Shown one piece after another: positions 5,468-14,498 of a stretch of 64,000 nt of DNA; position 1 is the stretch's first letter; each line of letters starts with the position of its first letter. The position numbers were made by a program, and so were the translations under genes. The notes below the pieces were generated by a model. It was not told the DNA's origin, ran no database searches, and was given only the letters and a program-made list of their open reading frames with translations. Origin of the DNA: Candidatus Aquidulcis sp. (GTDB lineage: Bacteria > Chloroflexota > Anaerolineae > Anaerolineales > UBA4823); assembly GCA_020723385.1 (NCBI GenBank), contig DYIZ01000007.1, forward strand, positions 16,640 to 80,639, given 5' to 3'.

Positions 5468-8400
5468 TCAGCCCAGCCCCACCAGCAGCCGGCCGTCTAC
5501 ATCTTCCAAACGGTCCACTTCGCCGCTGGCGGCGGCGCGGGCGAAAACGATGCCGGGGCGTTTCGCCCGCCGCGCCCGAGCCAGCACATTCAAGCTGGCC
5601 GGGTCGCTGCGTTTCAGCACGTCTCCCAGTATCTGGTCGTTTTGCACGTTGAGCTGGGCGAAACCCTGGCGCGCTCCGGCCACGCCGGCAACCATTTCGT
5701 CTGGCGTGAGACCTTGTGCGTAGTTACGCCGCACGACGACCGGTTTCCCGGACGCGTCGGTAGTCACGCCGCGCACGCCCACCACCATGTGCAGCGTCCG
5801 CCTGGCCCACGGGCGGGCGCGGGCGTCCAGAAGCTGCGGGCCAAGATCGAGACTGAGATAATCCGTTGAAGCCAGGATTTGTTCGGTCAACTCATCGGTG
5901 TATGCCTCCCACTGGGCGGGGTCGTTCCCATCGGGCGGGGGGGACAGCTTCAGGCTGCCGCCGATGAACGGGCTTAGCGAAGCCCCCGATGCCTGGGCAG
6001 CCTCGTATCCGTATCGAACCAGCCGTTCCAGAGTTTCCAAAGTTGACGGGATTCCCTTTCGGCTGAGTGTCATCTCGAGGAGATCAGCTATCGCGCCTTG
6101 GGTGAGAACAGCCCCGAAAGCGGTATCCTCAATCTCGAGGATTTCTGCAATCTCCTTGCGCCCGTCCGGGTTCAGCGAGCGGTAAGCCAGCCCCCAGATG
6201 ACTTCGGCAGACGGCAGGAGAGTCTTGACCAGGGAAGGATCGTGCGCTAGATGCCCGGCCACCGAGAGCAGCTCTTTCGCCTCCTGCTGTCCGCCATCTG
6301 TCAGCGGGAGATAGAAGGCGACCTGATCGCCGTCGAAGTCGGTGTTCATCCAGCGGCATACGACGGGGTTGAGACGGATAGCCCGGCTGGGATCTCTCAC
6401 CGGGTGAAAGGCGAGCATGGCCGTGGGGGAGAGGGCTGGCGCCCGGTAGATCACCAGCCACGAGCGGGACAGGATTTCGTCGAGTATCTGGACCGCCTGG
6501 GGGTTGTCGGGATGAGCCAGGGCTTCGCCTTTCAATTCACGAACTACCAATGGGCCAAACAGCTTCCAGCACAACTCTTCAGGGAAGCCGACTTGATCCA
6601 GATGCAGGTCCACGCCTGGCGCGGCCACCGAGCGCCCGCTGAAAAGCTGCGGTTCCTCGAAGCGCAGAACTTCTGGCGGGAGCAGCGCCTCGAAATAGGC
6701 ATTCAGCGTGCTTTCCAGGCGGATCTCGGCCTCCCGCGCCAGCCGCTCGGGAACCCGGCTGGAGAGCATCCGCGCCAACCGGGCATTGGCTTCGACCAGT
6801 TGGGCGGCTTCCGGGCTGCTTTTCTCACCTTCGAGCATTCCCACTGCCGACAGCAGACGCTCGTGCAGCCAGGGGTGCGGCATTGGGCGGGCCAGTTCGA
6901 GAGTCTCCCCATTGGGTGGGGCGAACCCGAAGGTTAATTGGCCATCGGTCAGCTCGGCGTGGATTCCGGCCGCTTGCAGGCGGGAGGCCAGGTCGGTGAA
7001 CATTGGCGAGGGGAAGCCGGCCTGGGCGATTTTGCCTTTGGCGGCCCGTTGGGCTAACGCAGCGGCATCTGGCCGGCGGGAAGAGCGGGTGTTCAGGGCT
7101 TCTCGCAAGTTGCTGATCGCGCCCAGATTACGCAGAGTGGTGTATTCGGGTTCACTCAAAATTTGATCGCGGGATTGATCCACCGTGGCCCAGATTTTGT
7201 CTTTGACCAGATGGGCCAGGCGGCTCCAGTACACCCACCCGATGGCGCTGGGGCGCTCCAGCGGCGCGCCGTTTTTTCCCCGGAGGAGCGTCTCCATCCC
7301 GGTTTCCGGCAGCCCCGCCTGGATGAGCCGCTGGCGCAGCTCGTTGGGGGCGGGGGCGTGGAACGGCGGGACGATGGCGGGAGCGCCATCCAGCCGGGCA
7401 ATGCGGCTCATCACGGCCTCGCGCACCTGGCCGATGTGCATGCGGGTTCGCAGGCCGGGGAAATTGTAGATCAGCTCGACGGGCGTGCCATCCGGCAGAT
7501 GCGGCATTTGATCGTCGGGGAGGATGTAACTGACCACGCCCTTTGCGCCGTGCCGGTTGCTGATCTTGTCGCCCGGCTCGACCGGGAAGGGGTCGTTCAT
7601 CCGGCGGGCCGCCGACTCACTGAGAATGATGCCATCCTCGGAAACGCCCGGCCCCCAGGCAATGAAGGCTGTCAGCAGGCTGCGCCCGCACCAAAAGTCG
7701 GGAGCGTCCGGCTCGTTGCCGGTCTGCACCCAGGCTGGCTCGGGGTGGTTGGGGACGATGGCCTGGCGCATCATATTGGCGGCCATCAGCAGCCGGTTGG
7801 GATCGTTGTTTTCGAGGAAGGGCAGCATCGAGGCGGATAACCCCAGCCCGGCCTCGGGGCGCTCGTCCACCACGATCAGCCGCCCGCCGCGAATCTCGGC
7901 CCCGATGGCGACGGTGAAGATGCGTCCGATGTACGGGCCTTCGGGCGTCTCAAAAGGGCAAACGCGCCCTTTCTCTTCGGGAGCGACCACTCTGGCGGTA
8001 CCGGACAGCGCTCCCCGGGTTGGGATGATCAACCGCCGCAGGTGGGTATGCCGGCTGAGCCAGTTGGTTGTATCCAATCGTTGGGATTTGGCCTGGAGGA
8101 ACTCGTTGAGCCAGCGGTCGAGGGGCAGCCAGGCGCGCAGGATCTCATTGTCCCACGCCACACCGTTGGAGGCCTGCCCGAGCTGATCCAGAATATGACT
8201 GAATAGCTGTTCGCCAACGCAGGCGACCTCGGCTGCATCCAGCGGATGATCGGAAACCGTGGGGATAACGATGCGTGGTTCGCCATCCAGATAGAAGATG
8301 CCAGAGTCGTCTGGGGAGGGGATCGCCGGGTAGCCGGCTTGCACCCCGCCGGACAGCTCGATTTGGATGTGGCAGGTCTGAGGGCTATCCTCGGTGACCG

Positions 8401-8506
8401 AGTAACCGGCCAGCGGCAGGCGCTCGGCCAGCAGTTGGGGCAGGCGGTCGGATATGAATTGTTCGAATGACGCTTTGTGCCAGGGCGTCGAGGGATTGAT
8501 GGTCAT
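5468..8506 (-). CDS. Single-chain beta/beta-prime RNA polymerase core homologue
   Basis: A 1012-residue protein joining the two catalytic double-psi beta-barrel regions of RNA polymerase, in the order beta then beta-prime. Beta half: CPFETPEGP (183-191), ASMLPFLENND (225-235), SEDGIILSE (289-297), GDKISNRHGAKGVVS (312-326, both active-site lysines kept) and TRMHIGQ (354-360), then LAHLVKDKIWA (430-440). Beta-prime half: a clamp-helix-like coiled coil (about 565-610), SGRSVAAPG (623-631), IYRAPALSP (686-694), the catalytic loop NTDFDGDQ (721-728, all three Asp kept), a GAS segment near 841, an F-loop-like stretch (893-918) and half a bridge helix (928-956). Missing: the beta flap, the beta C-terminal switch region, the beta-prime zinc modules, rudder and trigger loop, and everything after the bridge helix. 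Beta plus beta-prime normally exceed 2500 residues. The ATG at 8506 has AGGAG 9 nt upstream, inside the end of the sigma gene, 4 nt after its stop. Family assignment is firm; catalytic activity is inferred. Confidence 0.93.
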   Translation of the reverse strand: MTINPSTPWHKASFEQFISDRLPQLLAERLPLAGYSVTEDSPQTCHIQIELSGGVQAGYPAIPSPDDSGIFYLDGEPRIVIPTVSDHPLDAAEVACVGEQLFSHILDQLGQASNGVAWDNEILRAWLPLDRWLNEFLQAKSQRLDTTNWLSRHTHLRRLIIPTRGALSGTARVVAPEEKGRVCPFETPEGPYIGRIFTVAIGAEIRGGRLIVVDERPEAGLGLSASMLPFLENNDPNRLLMAANMMRQAIVPNHPEPAWVQTGNEPDAPDFWCGRSLLTAFIAWGPGVSEDGIILSESAARRMNDPFPVEPGDKISNRHGAKGVVSYILPDDQMPHLPDGTPVELIYNFPGLRTRMHIGQVREAVMSRIARLDGAPAIVPPFHAPAPNELRQRLIQAGLPETGMETLLRGKNGAPLERPSAIGWVYWSRLAHLVKDKIWATVDQSRDQILSEPEYTTLRNLGAISNLREALNTRSSRRPDAAALAQRAAKGKIAQAGFPSPMFTDLASRLQAAGIHAELTDGQLTFGFAPPNGETLELARPMPHPWLHERLLSAVGMLEGEKSSPEAAQLVEANARLARMLSSRVPERLAREAEIRLESTLNAYFEALLPPEVLRFEEPQLFSGRSVAAPGVDLHLDQVGFPEELCWKLFGPLVVRELKGEALAHPDNPQAVQILDEILSRSWLVIYRAPALSPTAMLAFHPVRDPSRAIRLNPVVCRWMNTDFDGDQVAFYLPLTDGGQQEAKELLSVAGHLAHDPSLVKTLLPSAEVIWGLAYRSLNPDGRKEIAEILEIEDTAFGAVLTQGAIADLLEMTLSRKGIPSTLETLERLVRYGYEAAQASGASLSPFIGGSLKLSPPPDGNDPAQWEAYTDELTEQILASTDYLSLDLGPQLLDARARPWARRTLHMVVGVRGVTTDASGKPVVVRRNYAQGLTPDEMVAGVAGARQGFAQLNVQNDQILGDVLKRSDPASLNVLARARRAKRPGIVFARAAASGEVDRLEDVDGRLLVGLG

Positions 8507-8510
8507 TGGA

Positions 8511-9116
8511 TCACTCCTGTTCGGCCTGCAATTCACGCTTGACGTGCTCACGCGCATAGTGCAGGCGAGATTTGGCAGTTCCTTCGGGAATGCCCAGCTC
8601 GTCAGCCGCATCCCGCAGGCTCAACTCCATCTGGTGCACCAGGCGGAGTAACTCACGTTTTTCTTCGGGCAAATCCTGGATGATTTGCCGGAGCCGGGCG
8701 TTTTGCTCACTCTGTTCGATCACCGCATCCGGCCCGAGGCTGGCGGTATCCACCAGCCAGGAGGGTGAATCGAGTTGCTCGCCTTCGCCGGTGAATTCTT
8801 CTGGCGTCTCCAGTGGTTGTTCTGGCCGCCGTTTGCGGGTGCGCAAGTGGTTGAGGGCCAGGTTGGCGGCGATGCGGAACAACCAGGCTTTCACGGCTCC
8901 CTGCCCATTCCACTGCCCGGCGCGTGTCCAGACCCGCAGGAAAGTTTCTTGCAGCAGATCATCGGCGGCAGCCTCATCGCGTACGAAGTGGGTGAGGTAG
9001 CGGCGGATGGATGCCTCGTAGCGCTCGAAGAACAGCTCGAAAGCATAAGCCTGCTGCGCCTGGATGTGTTCTATCAGCTCGTGGTCGGGTAGGGGATCGG
9101 TCAATTTCGGCTCCAC
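8511..9116 (-). CDS. ECF-type sigma-70 family factor
   Basis: A 201-residue sigma factor with region 2 at about 27-94 (core-binding DDLLQETFLRVW, then the FRIAANLALNHLR -10 recognition helix) and region 4 at about 140-196 (LRDAADELGIPEGTAKSRLH helix-turn-helix). An acidic linker of about 45 residues joins them. The start is a GTG at 9116, because an in-frame stop lies two codons before it; a TTG at 9104 with GGAG 6 nt upstream is an equally good alternative. No anti-sigma gene is adjacent: the place usually held by one is taken by the single-chain polymerase gene, which begins 4 nt after this stop. This suggests that the sigma factor and the accessory core work together, or that the sigma factor controls the operon. 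It is transcribed away from 9256. Confidence 0.93.
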   Translation of the reverse strand: MEPKLTDPLPDHELIEHIQAQQAYAFELFFERYEASIRRYLTHFVRDEAAADDLLQETFLRVWTRAGQWNGQGAVKAWLFRIAANLALNHLRTRKRRPEQPLETPEEFTGEGEQLDSPSWLVDTASLGPDAVIEQSEQNARLRQIIQDLPEEKRELLRLVHQMELSLRDAADELGIPEGTAKSRLHYAREHVKRELQAEQE

Positions 9117-9255
9117 TCTCTAAGACACCGCACAGAGGGGGATGGTTCAATTATTGCCTGACTGAACAGAGCGGAGGTTTTCACAGGCCGAAGCATATCA
9201 CTATTTTTCTCGGGAAAGTCTTTGCATTCTTGCGTCTTTGGGTTAGACTCGGTGC

Positions 9256-9942
9256 GTGAAGACGCATCCCCTCGATATTCGCCAACTCTACAACAATTTC
9301 GATGCTCCCGTTGTTGCTTTCGACTGCGGCCAGCGCTGCGCTGCGTATAACTCCAGCGGCCTGCCTTTCTGCTGTGACATTTGCCGCGCTGTTCCGGCGG
9401 CGCTTCAGCCTGAATGGGATTACCTGCGCCCGAATACGGATTTATGGCATGTCTGGCGCGGTGACGAGTGTGAATCTGCACCCGAAGACCCTCAGAATCT
9501 TCTGGATGAGACTCCCGAACACATGCTGCTGCTAGCCTGCCTTGGGCCGGACCGCTGCCAGCGGCAGTACCGCGCTCTGAGCTGCCGTCAGTTCCCATTC
9601 TTCCCGTACATCACATCAGATTTGCGCTTTCTGGGTCTGGCGTACGATTGGGAATTCGACGCGCTGTGCTGGGTGATCAGCCATCTCGATCAGGTGACGG
9701 GTGAATACCGGCAGCAATTCATTCAAACCTATGATAACCTGTTCGCTGCCTGGCCTGCGGAGTTGATGAGTTATGCGCTTCGCTCGCAGGATATGCGTGA
9801 ATGCTTTATCGAACGCCGCCGCCGCATCCCACTCTTGCACCGCAATGGGGAAGCCTATCTGATCAGCCCATCCAGCGAGCGAATGCAGCGCGTTTCACCA
9901 GAGCGATTGCCGACAATGGGATACTACCATTCAACTCAGTGA
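9256..9942 (+). CDS. Cysteine-rich YkgJ-like protein
   Basis: A 228-residue soluble protein with no signal peptide. The N-terminal part holds closely spaced cysteines (C24, C28, C39, C40, C43) and a later segment reads CLGPDRCQRQYRALSCRQFP. Clustered cysteines plus a final CRxFP recall YkgJ-type proteins, thought to bind zinc or an iron-sulfur cluster; this is a resemblance by eye. The GTG start at 9256 has no clear ribosome site. The stop lies 13 nt before the GH13 gene, with an AAAGGA site between, so the two may be co-transcribed. Function unknown. Confidence 0.7.
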   Translation: MKTHPLDIRQLYNNFDAPVVAFDCGQRCAAYNSSGLPFCCDICRAVPAALQPEWDYLRPNTDLWHVWRGDECESAPEDPQNLLDETPEHMLLLACLGPDRCQRQYRALSCRQFPFFPYITSDLRFLGLAYDWEFDALCWVISHLDQVTGEYRQQFIQTYDNLFAAWPAELMSYALRSQDMRECFIERRRRIPLLHRNGEAYLISPSSERMQRVSPERLPTMGYYHSTQ

Positions 9943-11418: not shown

Positions 11419-12921
11419 ATGGCTGAATTGCGCATATCGCTTCTTGGAGGGCTAAACCTGGTTTTTGGAGGCCGTTCGCTGCCGCCTCCCTCGCCGCCGA
11501 AACTGGTTTCGCTGCTGGGTTGTTTGCTGTTGAATCATGAGCAGCCTGTCACCCGAGATCAGCTTGCAGTATGGCTGTGGCCGGATGTCGAAAGCGCTGA
11601 TGCCCGCGCCAACTTGCGCCGCCATCTTCATCTGCTGCGCGAGGCGCTGCCCGAGGGGGAATGGATTTTGACCGACCGTGATACGGTGCAGTGGAATCCG
11701 GCGGCGAAATACTGGCTGGATGTGGACGAATTCACCTGCCGGGTAGCGCGCTGCACGAGCGATGGAACGCTACAATCCTGCGAGGCATGCCTGGCGCTAT
11801 ACCAGGGGGATCTGCTTCCAGAGGTTTATGACGATTGGCTTATCCTGGATCGTGAGCGGTTGAGCCAGCTTTACCTGCAAACTCTGAAGGCAGCCATCGA
11901 ATGTTTCGGCGAACGAGGCGACTATGCCACCGCGCTCCGGTTTTCACAGCAGTTGCTTCGGTATGACCCATTGCACGAAGAGACCCACCGCGCGGCGATG
12001 CGCCTGAACTACCTTGCCGGGGACCGCCCGGCTGCCTTGCGACAGTTCGAGCAGTGCCGGGAGCTTTTACACCGCGAATTGAATGTGGAGCCGATGCCCA
12101 TTACACTGGAACTGCATCGGGCGATTCTCGAAGAGCAGTTGCCGCCCGGCCGCGCCGCGCCATTTTCTCGCGCCAGGCAAATAATCCCGGCTGTTCGATT
12201 GGTGTCTGTCCCAGCCAGGCCTGCTCGGCGAAGGTGGTGGGTTATGTCAGCCGCCGGAGTGATCGTATTGTTGTTACTGCTGGCTTTTATTTGGTTTGTC
12301 AGGAGGCCGCTGGCTGTGGATAATCTCATTATCAGCGGGCCAGCTGATGCGGCAGACACATGGATTAGCGAGCAATTCCCCAACGATTTGTATTGGCCTG
12401 ACGACCCTGACCATACGCCGCATAGTCAATATTCCCGTGCTCACTTGCAATATTTCGACCATCCTGTAGATCGAATATTGATTCGTTTCGACCTTGGCGC
12501 GCTGCCCAAGGATGCAGAAATCGAGCGAGCAATTTTCGAAATCCGCCTGGAAACCTGGATCGAGCTGGATGGCGCTGGATCACTGATAATGGCATACCCG
12601 GCGCAGGTGAGTGCCTACCAGATTTTTCAACCCTGGCAGGCAGACCAGGCGACTTACACTCGCCCCTGGTCTCAGCCCGGTCTCCAGCGGGGGATAGATA
12701 TTGGCGATCAGCCGTTGGATACACTGGAGATTAATGGCACGAACTGGCTGGCGTTCGATGTGACCGAGGCAGTGAAATCGTGGCAGCGTGAGCCTGCCTC
12801 GAACAGCGGGCTGATGCTCGTCATCAGCGGCGCTTCAGAAGAAATAGCCCATTACTGGGTGGATTTGACCGATCAACCTGCGCCTAATTTTCGCCCGGTT
12901 CTACGAATTTCCTATCGCTAA
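11419..12921 (+). CDS. Membrane-tethered SARP/BTAD regulator with DNRLRE-like outer domain (copy 1)
   Basis: A 500-residue protein with three parts. Residues 1-105 form the winged-helix DNA-binding domain of SARP regulators (LRISLLGG start, RDQLAVWLWPD). Residues about 106-245 are the bacterial transcriptional activation domain (DVDEF, YQGDLLPEVYDDW, EETHRAAMRLNYLAGDR). After a basic linker, residues 275-293 are one transmembrane helix flanked by RRRWW and RR. The outer part (298-500) resembles DNRLRE/CBM96-type domains (ADTWISEQ start, FDVTEAVKSWQ near the end), which occur on surface proteins and can bind glycans. DNA-binding inside and a likely ligand domain outside make it a one-component transmembrane sensor-regulator; this role is inferred. 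It lies 2 nt ahead of a paralogue of the same design. Confidence 0.88.
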   Translation: MAELRISLLGGLNLVFGGRSLPPPSPPKLVSLLGCLLLNHEQPVTRDQLAVWLWPDVESADARANLRRHLHLLREALPEGEWILTDRDTVQWNPAAKYWLDVDEFTCRVARCTSDGTLQSCEACLALYQGDLLPEVYDDWLILDRERLSQLYLQTLKAAIECFGERGDYATALRFSQQLLRYDPLHEETHRAAMRLNYLAGDRPAALRQFEQCRELLHRELNVEPMPITLELHRAILEEQLPPGRAAPFSRARQIIPAVRLVSVPARPARRRWWVMSAAGVIVLLLLLAFIWFVRRPLAVDNLIISGPADAADTWISEQFPNDLYWPDDPDHTPHSQYSRAHLQYFDHPVDRILIRFDLGALPKDAEIERAIFEIRLETWIELDGAGSLIMAYPAQVSAYQIFQPWQADQATYTRPWSQPGLQRGIDIGDQPLDTLEINGTNWLAFDVTEAVKSWQREPASNSGLMLVISGASEEIAHYWVDLTDQPAPNFRPVLRISYR

Positions 12922-12923
12922 CT

Positions 12924-14498
12924 ATGGGTCTCCGCGTTTGCATGTTGGGTGGTTTTCGAGCCGAAATCCTTAATCGCCAACTGGCGACTTTCAATCAACC
13001 TCATTTGATTGATTTGTGGGCATACTTGTTGCTCCACTCACAGCGTCCAATCCGGCGCGACCAACTGGCATTTTCCTTGTGGCCGGATTGCAGCGAACAA
13101 GAGGCGCGTGCTCAATTGCGCTCTGCCCTCCACCAATTGCGGTCGCTGTTACCCCCGCAGGAGGCCGGCTGCCCCTGGATTTTGTCGGTGAAGGGCGCCC
13201 TGTGCTGGAATCCCCAGGCTGATTACTGGCTGGATGTGCATGAATTTTCCCAAGCCATAGCAAGCACTTCCTGCGAGCAGGTGACGGCAGGCGTGGCGCG
13301 ATATGGCGGCGACCTGCTCCCGGAATTGTCTGGCGAGTGGGTGTTAGCAGAGCGCGCACGGTTGCGTGACCAATATTTGTCCAGCCTGCATCGGCTGGCG
13401 ACCATGCAAGCCGAACATTTGCTTTACCTGGCTGCCCTCGATACGGCTCAAAGGCTGGTGCACGAGGACCCCTTGAGCGAGGTCGCCCAGCGAGAGCTTG
13501 CCAGGCTGCGCTATCTCACCGGCGACCGGGCTGGCGCGCTGCGGCAGATCAGCGATTTCCAAAATACACTGGAACGGAACGGTTTTGCCTCCCGGCTTTC
13601 CTCTGAGACGCTGGCATTGCGCGATTCCATAGTATCTGGCCTGGAAATATCACCGCCTGAATCGGCGCGAATGGTTTCTGCCTCGAAATCCGGGCTTCAA
13701 CCGTCAACTCCTGCTAATATAGCCATGACAGGCGGGCGATCGGTTGTTTCCGAATGGGTCTCCCGGTTATCGGGGCGGCCGTTTTCGATTGCTCTCACGG
13801 TAGTAATCGCTGCCGTGCTATTGGCTATCATGGCGTGGTATCGTCCGTTCGGACCACACGCAACGATGACTCTCAGCGGGCCGCAAGCCGTTGAGGATAC
13901 CTGGATCGCTTCGGCGGCGCCCGGCTCGACTTCGGGATTGGGGTTTGAAAATGATCAGTGGTTGTATATTGATCTGCATGACGGGCGCGGTCCGGTCAAG
14001 CCCGAAACACCGTTTGCCCAATATCCGGCAGCGCGGTTGAACTTGGCCGGTTCGACGGTGATTGACGCGCTGCTCGCTTTCGACATGGCGCAATTGCCTG
14101 CCTGGCGTCATGTCGAAAGCGCCTACCTGACAATCTATCTCGAACGGGATTACTCCTGGATGGGCAAGCCTCAGGTACCACCGGTAACCATCACGGCTTA
14201 CCGGATTCTTCGTGAGTGGGATTCACTTACAGCCACATTCAGCTTTCCCTGGCTCGAACCGGGTCTCAAGCCTGGAGAGGATTATGAGTCTCGGCCATTG
14301 AGCTGGCAGACGGTGACGGCAGATGGCTTTGTAACTTTCGATTTGAGCGATGCCTTTCCAGCCTGGCAGTGGGGGCATAATTATGGCGTCGTTTTGATGG
14401 TCACAGAGGCCCCGGCCGGCGAGTCGGAATTTTGGATGATAACGAGCGAACACCCCGAATCCTCGCATTGGCCGCGGCTGACCATTCGCTACCGATAG
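12924..14498 (+). CDS. Membrane-tethered SARP/BTAD regulator with DNRLRE-like outer domain (copy 2)
   Basis: A 524-residue paralogue of the preceding regulator with the same order: SARP winged helix (1-105; RRDQLAFSLWPD), BTAD (about 106-240; RYGGDLLPELSGEW, LARLRYLTGDRAGALRQ), a longer Ser/Pro-rich linker, one transmembrane helix (about 286-305) and a DNRLRE-like outer domain (308-524; VEDTWIAS, FDLSDAFPAWQWG). The two outer domains have clearly diverged, so the pair may sense different ligands or act as a heterodimer. The ATG follows the first gene's stop after 2 nt. The gene ends 22 nt before four 11-bp-spaced repeats that look like a SARP operator, suggesting that the pair controls the genes that follow. 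Confidence 0.88.
   Translation: MGLRVCMLGGFRAEILNRQLATFNQPHLIDLWAYLLLHSQRPIRRDQLAFSLWPDCSEQEARAQLRSALHQLRSLLPPQEAGCPWILSVKGALCWNPQADYWLDVHEFSQAIASTSCEQVTAGVARYGGDLLPELSGEWVLAERARLRDQYLSSLHRLATMQAEHLLYLAALDTAQRLVHEDPLSEVAQRELARLRYLTGDRAGALRQISDFQNTLERNGFASRLSSETLALRDSIVSGLEISPPESARMVSASKSGLQPSTPANIAMTGGRSVVSEWVSRLSGRPFSIALTVVIAAVLLAIMAWYRPFGPHATMTLSGPQAVEDTWIASAAPGSTSGLGFENDQWLYIDLHDGRGPVKPETPFAQYPAARLNLAGSTVIDALLAFDMAQLPAWRHVESAYLTIYLERDYSWMGKPQVPPVTITAYRILREWDSLTATFSFPWLEPGLKPGEDYESRPLSWQTVTADGFVTFDLSDAFPAWQWGHNYGVVLMVTEAPAGESEFWMITSEHPESSHWPRLTIRYR

Follow-up and report, generated by a model that had tools for sequence, protein, structure and literature searches.

Does a bacterium that already possesses an ordinary RNA polymerase (RNAP) also make use of a second, much smaller one that comes with a sigma factor of its own? 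This question is raised by the window, a stretch of 64,000 nucleotides (nt) from Candidatus Aquidulcis sp. (assembly GCA_020723385.1, contig DYIZ01000007.1, positions 16,640 to 80,639 of the forward strand), in which the gene of an extracytoplasmic function (ECF) sigma factor is followed, on the minus strand, by that of a 1012-residue protein joining the beta and beta-prime parts of an RNAP in one chain. On balance we lean towards the view that the two proteins form a private holoenzyme, an ECF sigma factor with a trimmed single-chain core, which is predicted to transcribe its own operon from a conserved promoter. The source genome (6.43 Mb, completeness 95.55, contamination 4.5) contains ordinary rpoB and rpoC genes (contigs C230 and C42, respectively), a check asked for by an earlier, sequence-only reading of the window, so that the 1012-residue enzyme is additional and not the housekeeping polymerase. 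That reading proposed, and we likewise infer, a dedicated accessory transcription system; what goes beyond it is the missing trigger loop and flap, the operon's own conserved promoter, and a deep clade apart from rpoB and rpoC. The features on which the argument rests are the following:

5468 to 8506, minus strand: gene of the single-chain beta/beta-prime RNAP, 1012 residues (open reading frame, Pfam matches, relatives and fold model)
6887 to 8506, minus strand: beta-derived half, residues 1-540
7538 to 7573, minus strand: GDKxxNRHGxKG, residues 312-323, with the flap deletion immediately ahead of it
6683 to 6814, minus strand: beta-prime clamp coiled coil, residues 565-608
6326 to 6346, minus strand: catalytic NTDFDGD, residues 721-727 (aspartate conservation in 119 sequences)
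5609 to 5704, minus strand: bridge helix, residues 935-966, with no trigger loop after it
5474 to 5557, minus strand: conserved C-terminal motif, residues 984-1011, likely beta-prime C-terminal anchor
8511 to 9116, minus strand: ECF sigma factor gene, 201 residues from GTG 9116
9124 to 9149, minus strand: TGAAC-N16-GTGTC, the conserved promoter ahead of the sigma gene
9111 to 9117, minus strand: AGTGGAG, a conserved block close to where transcription is expected to begin and at constant spacing from the -10 element

The polymerase open reading frame runs from 8611 down to 5468, and the ATG at 8506 gives the 1012 residues; the sigma stop codon lies at 8511-8513 with this ATG 4 nt further on, exactly the spacing first described. 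Pfam finds Rpb2_6 (4.5e-35), Rpb1_2 (1.6e-18) and Rpb2_3 (4.1e-11) in the one chain, which also holds the beta and then beta-prime motifs quoted in the sequence-only reading, and the fold model of the polymerase alone is beta plus beta-prime; both halves are thus what they had been taken for. The upstream protein matches Sigma70_r2 (2.3e-17) and Sigma70_r4_2 (1e-10) and scores 117.5 bits against the NCBIfam sigma70-ECF model (cut-off 42.9), while no model for region 1 or 3 was listed at E up to 1 in the Pfam scan; it is an ECF sigma factor, with regions 2 and 4 and without regions 1 and 3. Its identity therefore stands as proposed, whereas its start, placed at 9116, probably does not: GTG 9116 falls within the conserved promoter-linked block, and TTG 9104 (197 residues) is the more likely start codon. 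In Pfam the partner gene shows RNAP domains only and no anti-sigma domain.

The polymerase has many counterparts. About 5.8 billion proteins were searched, with 934 matches at E ≤ 0.001 among 7998 scored candidates; 119 of the 120 listed proteins, the window's included, are 1000-1077 residues long (the remaining one 855), and these 119 align end to end. The 118 full-length relatives, 49-68% identical to the window protein, are annotated as "hypothetical protein", by a list of domains or not at all, and they rule out an assembly chimera or a pseudogene, the former having been named at the outset as a possible source of error. Judged by these alignments, the polymerase is a member of a coherent unnamed family. 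Named genome records yielded at least 25 further loci (L037-L061), with titles from Chloroflexota, Ca. Poribacteria, Armatimonadota, Ca. Hydrogenedentota, one Bacillota bin (partial gene) and unclassified bins. The family is sparse in distribution: it occurs in 5 of 400 genomes sampled across the phylum of the window (two candidates scored per genome), one copy being cut by the contig end (G265) and another carrying internal stop codons (G328), and in 2 of 101 near relatives, the genome itself counted. Two of the named records stand out. In Dictyobacter kobayashii strain Uno11 (L050:9974-13030, the same as L010) stop codons split the polymerase into two open reading frames, and a Poribacteria contig (L055:1-6368) keeps the last 707 residues together with 4.2 kb of upstream DNA.

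The catalytic aspartates are nearly invariant (D723 in 119/119, D725 and D727 each in 118/119); lysine K314 is kept in 114/119, R355 in 116/119 and D291 in 104/119; the E. coli equivalents of these active-site residues are our assumption, and the lysines of GDKxxNRHGxKG are presumably K1065 and K1073 of E. coli beta. Selection thus acts on catalysis in most members, while some may have lost or altered it. The sequence and structural marks of a two-barrel RNAP are present, namely DxDGD, the GDK...KG lysines, the arginine of RM..GQ and the bridge helix, residues 935-966 aligning with the bridge helix of the genome's own rpoC; identity to the own rpoB is 30% over 541 columns and to the own rpoC 25% over 411 columns. 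The columns of the trigger loop, in contrast, hold 0 residues in all 19 aligned members and are filled in 17/17 cellular rows, and those of the beta flap are likewise empty in 19/19; in the 39 other RNAPs aligned, flap and trigger loop columns are filled without exception. The beta-prime clamp coiled coil, which is the main dock of sigma region 2, is kept in 19/19, and the beta flap is the usual dock of sigma region 4. Foldseek TM-scores are modest (about 0.3-0.6), because only parts of larger chains are matched; the top matches in a viral fold library are virus RNAP subunits, with TM (query) up to 0.40. The C-terminal motif gave no significant result in a profile test of its own (best E 0.56), and it is kept as a likely beta-prime C-terminal anchor since structure alignments (root mean square deviation 6-7 Å, judged only by the first and last residues) stop close to the C-terminus of beta-prime, in accord with the global alignment. 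At the position that we take to be equivalent to S531 in the rifampicin region of E. coli beta, L (53), I (25), F (12) or V (8) is found in 98/119 members, the other 21 not being listed in this tally; the polymerase is therefore predicted to be insensitive to rifamycins.

The second pillar of the argument is the association with the sigma factor, which persists in other genomes and across phyla. The polymerase gene is preceded by a co-oriented sigma gene in 22 of 26 loci (the window and L037-L061); L058, L059 and L060 begin within the polymerase gene, and the fourth exception is L055. A profile of the partner sigma, run over the 400 genomes with at most 7 best candidates scored in each, gave 278.8-316.4 bits in five genomes, precisely those that carry the polymerase, and no more than 152.3 bits in any other. 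In a tree with 26 further sigmas, all taken from the window's genome, the 22 partner sigmas fall into a single clade (100/99). Pairwise distances of sigma and polymerase are correlated (r = 0.83, 18 loci, 0/5000 permutations as high), to which shared organism history contributes. Of the 19 junctions that could be measured, 10 allow stop and start codons to overlap by 1-4 nt, and 3, including that of the window, have the two separated by 2-26 nt. The loci share other neighbours only within groups of close relatives, a few common enzyme families aside, and a wider conserved gene cluster was rejected on this ground. Sigma factor and polymerase are a unit.

The third is the promoter. An ECF-type promoter with GAAC at -35 precedes the operon and would be recognized by its own sigma factor. 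GAAC-N15/16-G[T/C]GTC stands upstream of the sigma gene in 22/22 loci and the exact TGAAC-N16-GTGTC in 19/22; the set comprises the window, L008 and 20 loci of named genomes, spans four named phyla as well as unclassified bins, and includes several near relatives (e.g. L039-L041, L049/L057, L045/L008). As a control, 27 further sigma genes in the genome of the window were inspected, none of which is preceded by the motif. Seven nt past GTGTC, GTRGAR follows exactly in 15/22 loci and with at most one mismatch in 19/22. Its distance to the -10 element is fixed while that to the start codon varies, which suggests that the block is not merely a ribosome binding site. In L050, with its interrupted polymerase, -35 and -10 are intact and the start block is changed, a single case that fits a block read by the polymerase. 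For the full pattern, the operon is the sole 0-mismatch match in each of the three genomes where it is exact (G000, G252 and G294); no second such site was found in the six genomes searched, and across the window, the initial 20 kb of its contig and loci L037-L061 it was seen at sigma promoters only. With up to two mismatches the six genomes gave 44 matches against 42 in a reversed control, and the bare TGAAC-N16-GTGTC gave 47 against 32, five of the 47 being the operons themselves. The promoter pattern occurs in 33 stretches of the whole IMG/VR database, taken as chance without a control.

The origin of the family was addressed by a tree of cellular and phage RNAPs over 972 columns, made by a quick method. 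All family members fall into one clade (SH-aLRT 100), whose stem measures 1.39 changes per column; cellular rpoB and rpoC, including the subunits of the window's genome, form a separate clade (99), and the family also lies outside the phage fused RNAPs. This separation rules out debris of the host rpoB and rpoC, and with so long a stem the tree leaves the sister group open. The strong match to rpoB and rpoC tends to speak against a nearer kinship with YonO-like or QDE-1-like single-chain RNAPs. Among 18 family rows, a clade of their own is resolved for the Poribacteria (99/98) but not for Armatimonadota or Chloroflexota, and transfer between phyla is possible. A phage or plasmid gene was rejected after tblastn against 50,697 phage and 72,556 plasmid records, where the 36 and 65 partial matches never covered more than 80% of the query. 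An exact-peptide scan of IMG/VR gave no match; a profile scan gave at least 312 confirmed stretches, the best 80 of which are larger fused or split RNAPs and do not belong to the family, since the 21 aligned ones fill the trigger loop and flap columns. Of these 80 viral-contig loci (L116-L195), 40 have a single open reading frame of at least 1,900 residues matching the family profile, most of these match both the beta and the beta-prime part, and 16 of the 40, aligned, have flap and trigger loop columns filled and are full-size fused phage RNAPs. A fused beta/beta-prime open reading frame of 2216 residues on a Poribacteria-binned contig (L098:7775-14425) groups beside cellular RNAPs and may be viral. 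A defence system was also discarded; PADLOC has no model for the polymerase, and a CARF match of the sigma factor (E 0.004) was taken as chance.

From these elements a mechanism can be proposed. Sigma region 2 would dock on the retained clamp coiled coil, the sigma factor would read TGAAC and GTGTC, and the small core, not the host core alone, would start RNA at the RGTRGAR block. Without a trigger loop, transcription would probably be slower or less accurate, and the feedback loop may be self-sustaining, as no anti-sigma gene was found conserved beside the operon. Since G000, G252 and G294 hold no other exact full promoter, a self-referential switch is the simplest reading. Its fullest form would be a second sigma-dependent cellular RNAP of one chain, without flap and trigger loop, with its own ECF sigma, a private promoter and a fixed start block, serving only itself in a closed circuit, needing no host core after its start and with a predicted insensitivity to rifamycins; this we put forward tentatively, with less confidence than the private holoenzyme as such. 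A number of observations weigh against the private holoenzyme. The host core with this sigma factor may use the promoter, and conservation is silent on which core does so. The flap is gone although the partner sigma keeps region 4, and likely substrate residues are lost in some members (R688 kept in 95/119, K322 in 102/119, E290 in 69/119). L055 lacks residues 1-305 and also the sigma gene, despite its 4.2 kb of upstream DNA; the genes are 73-249 nt apart in 6/19 measured loci, so tight coupling is not universal; and no natural fusion of sigma factor and polymerase was found at E ≤ 0.001 among 1493 candidates. The block is not in register in L048, L050 and L053, the spacer of L046 is 15 nt, and L048 has GCGTC. 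The looser searches stay near their control, so that a wider regulon with degenerate sites may exist.

The last point leads to a holoenzyme that is real but serves more than itself, through degenerate promoters or on incoming foreign DNA. The excess of bare promoters over control could be read in this way; it is small and uneven between genomes, the exact full pattern has no second site in the six genomes, and we consider this the least probable of the rivals. A different division of labour has the polymerase-like protein restrain the sigma factor through the clamp coiled coil and free it on a signal, e.g. nucleotide or nucleic acid binding, while the host core transcribes. In autoregulated ECF sigma/anti-sigma operons the ECF gene comes first, its partner lies downstream and the promoter is the sigma factor's own; the present operon is alike in gene order and self-promoter, its partner being a polymerase and not an anti-sigma factor. 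That the polymerase occupies the usual anti-sigma position, often with overlapping start and stop, that no separate anti-sigma gene is conserved nearby, that the self-promoter is strong and that the sigma dock was kept while flap and trigger loop were lost can all be accommodated by such restraint. A pure decoy would, however, not retain the catalytic aspartates, K314 and R355 as they are retained here, nor do the large parts of both cores that persist suit one, and we judge restraint unlikely. Finally, the polymerase might copy RNA or make short RNAs in the manner of QDE-1, the sigma factor merely controlling its expression through the host core. Passages of PMC7281927 and PMC10770324 count RNA-dependent enzymes among the small two-barrel ones of one chain, and a simplified core without flap or trigger loop would suit this role; set against it, the similarity to cellular beta and beta-prime is clear, and a sigma clade found only together with the polymerase in 400 genomes goes beyond the needs of expression control, which makes this proposal improbable, more so than restraint. 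The private holoenzyme with its own promoter is thus the reading we retain.

Several known systems resemble it in part. In passages of PMC5467207, YonO of the Bacillus prophage SPbeta is reported as a highly processive single-chain DNA-dependent RNAP without trigger loop homology, so that a missing trigger loop does not exclude activity. Like the present family, YonO is described there as one chain of about 100 kDa with two beta barrels and no trigger loop; unlike it, YonO is a prophage enzyme with few residues common with cellular RNAP (PMC5467207), whereas here long stretches of both halves can be aligned with rpoB and rpoC and a dedicated ECF sigma gene adjoins. The non-virion RNAPs of AR9 (with the sigma-like gp226) and phiKZ are also second polymerases with their own promoter-specificity subunit, but, from the relevant passages of PMC9209446, they consist of several split subunits, are phage-borne and have a sigma likeness that is structural only; the present enzyme is a single chain, lies on bacterial contigs and is accompanied by a clear ECF sigma. 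Single-chain two-barrel RNAPs are likewise represented by P23-45 gp64/gp96 and crAss-like phi14:2 gp66 (in passages of PMC10770324), from which the family differs by trigger loop columns empty in every aligned member. Beta and beta-prime are one chain in the fused rpoBC of Wolinella and Adlerbacteria as well (passages of PMC11515920); those are full-size enzymes (the NCBIfam fused models have 2839 and 2890 positions), and the present protein has 1012 residues and is additional to ordinary rpoB and rpoC. More generally, passages of PMC7281927 assign two-barrel RNAPs of a single subunit to phages and linear plasmids, and an RNA-templated form to RNA interference in eukaryotes, and fused phage and cellular RNAPs are mentioned in PMC7481178 and PMC11515920. 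None of the passages of these comparison papers describes a chromosomal sigma-paired single-chain RNAP, and no paper on the sigma-polymerase pair was found in the open-licence PubMed Central literature, judged by titles and the beginnings of abstracts.

Two neighbouring regions of the window may be mentioned. Divergent from the sigma operon, 9256-9942 encodes a 228-residue protein with a start that is cysteine-rich by eye and with no Pfam match at E 0.001. Further on, 11419-14498 contains two adjacent genes with BTAD regulator domains, each followed, by eye, by a transmembrane stretch and a second half, which would make them unusual membrane-bound regulators.

In the textbook view of bacteria, one RNAP core is common to all sigma factors. 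A chromosomal second core tied to one sigma factor and one promoter would, to our knowledge, be the first in cells rather than phages, and a private sigma-core pair, if true, would break the rule of one core per bacterium; the conserved start block allows a direct test of which core reads the promoter. The pair would also be a compact orthogonal transcription system with its own promoter, and the family would represent a natural minimal RNAP in which the need for the flap, the trigger loop and separate subunits in sigma-dependent initiation could be put to the test.

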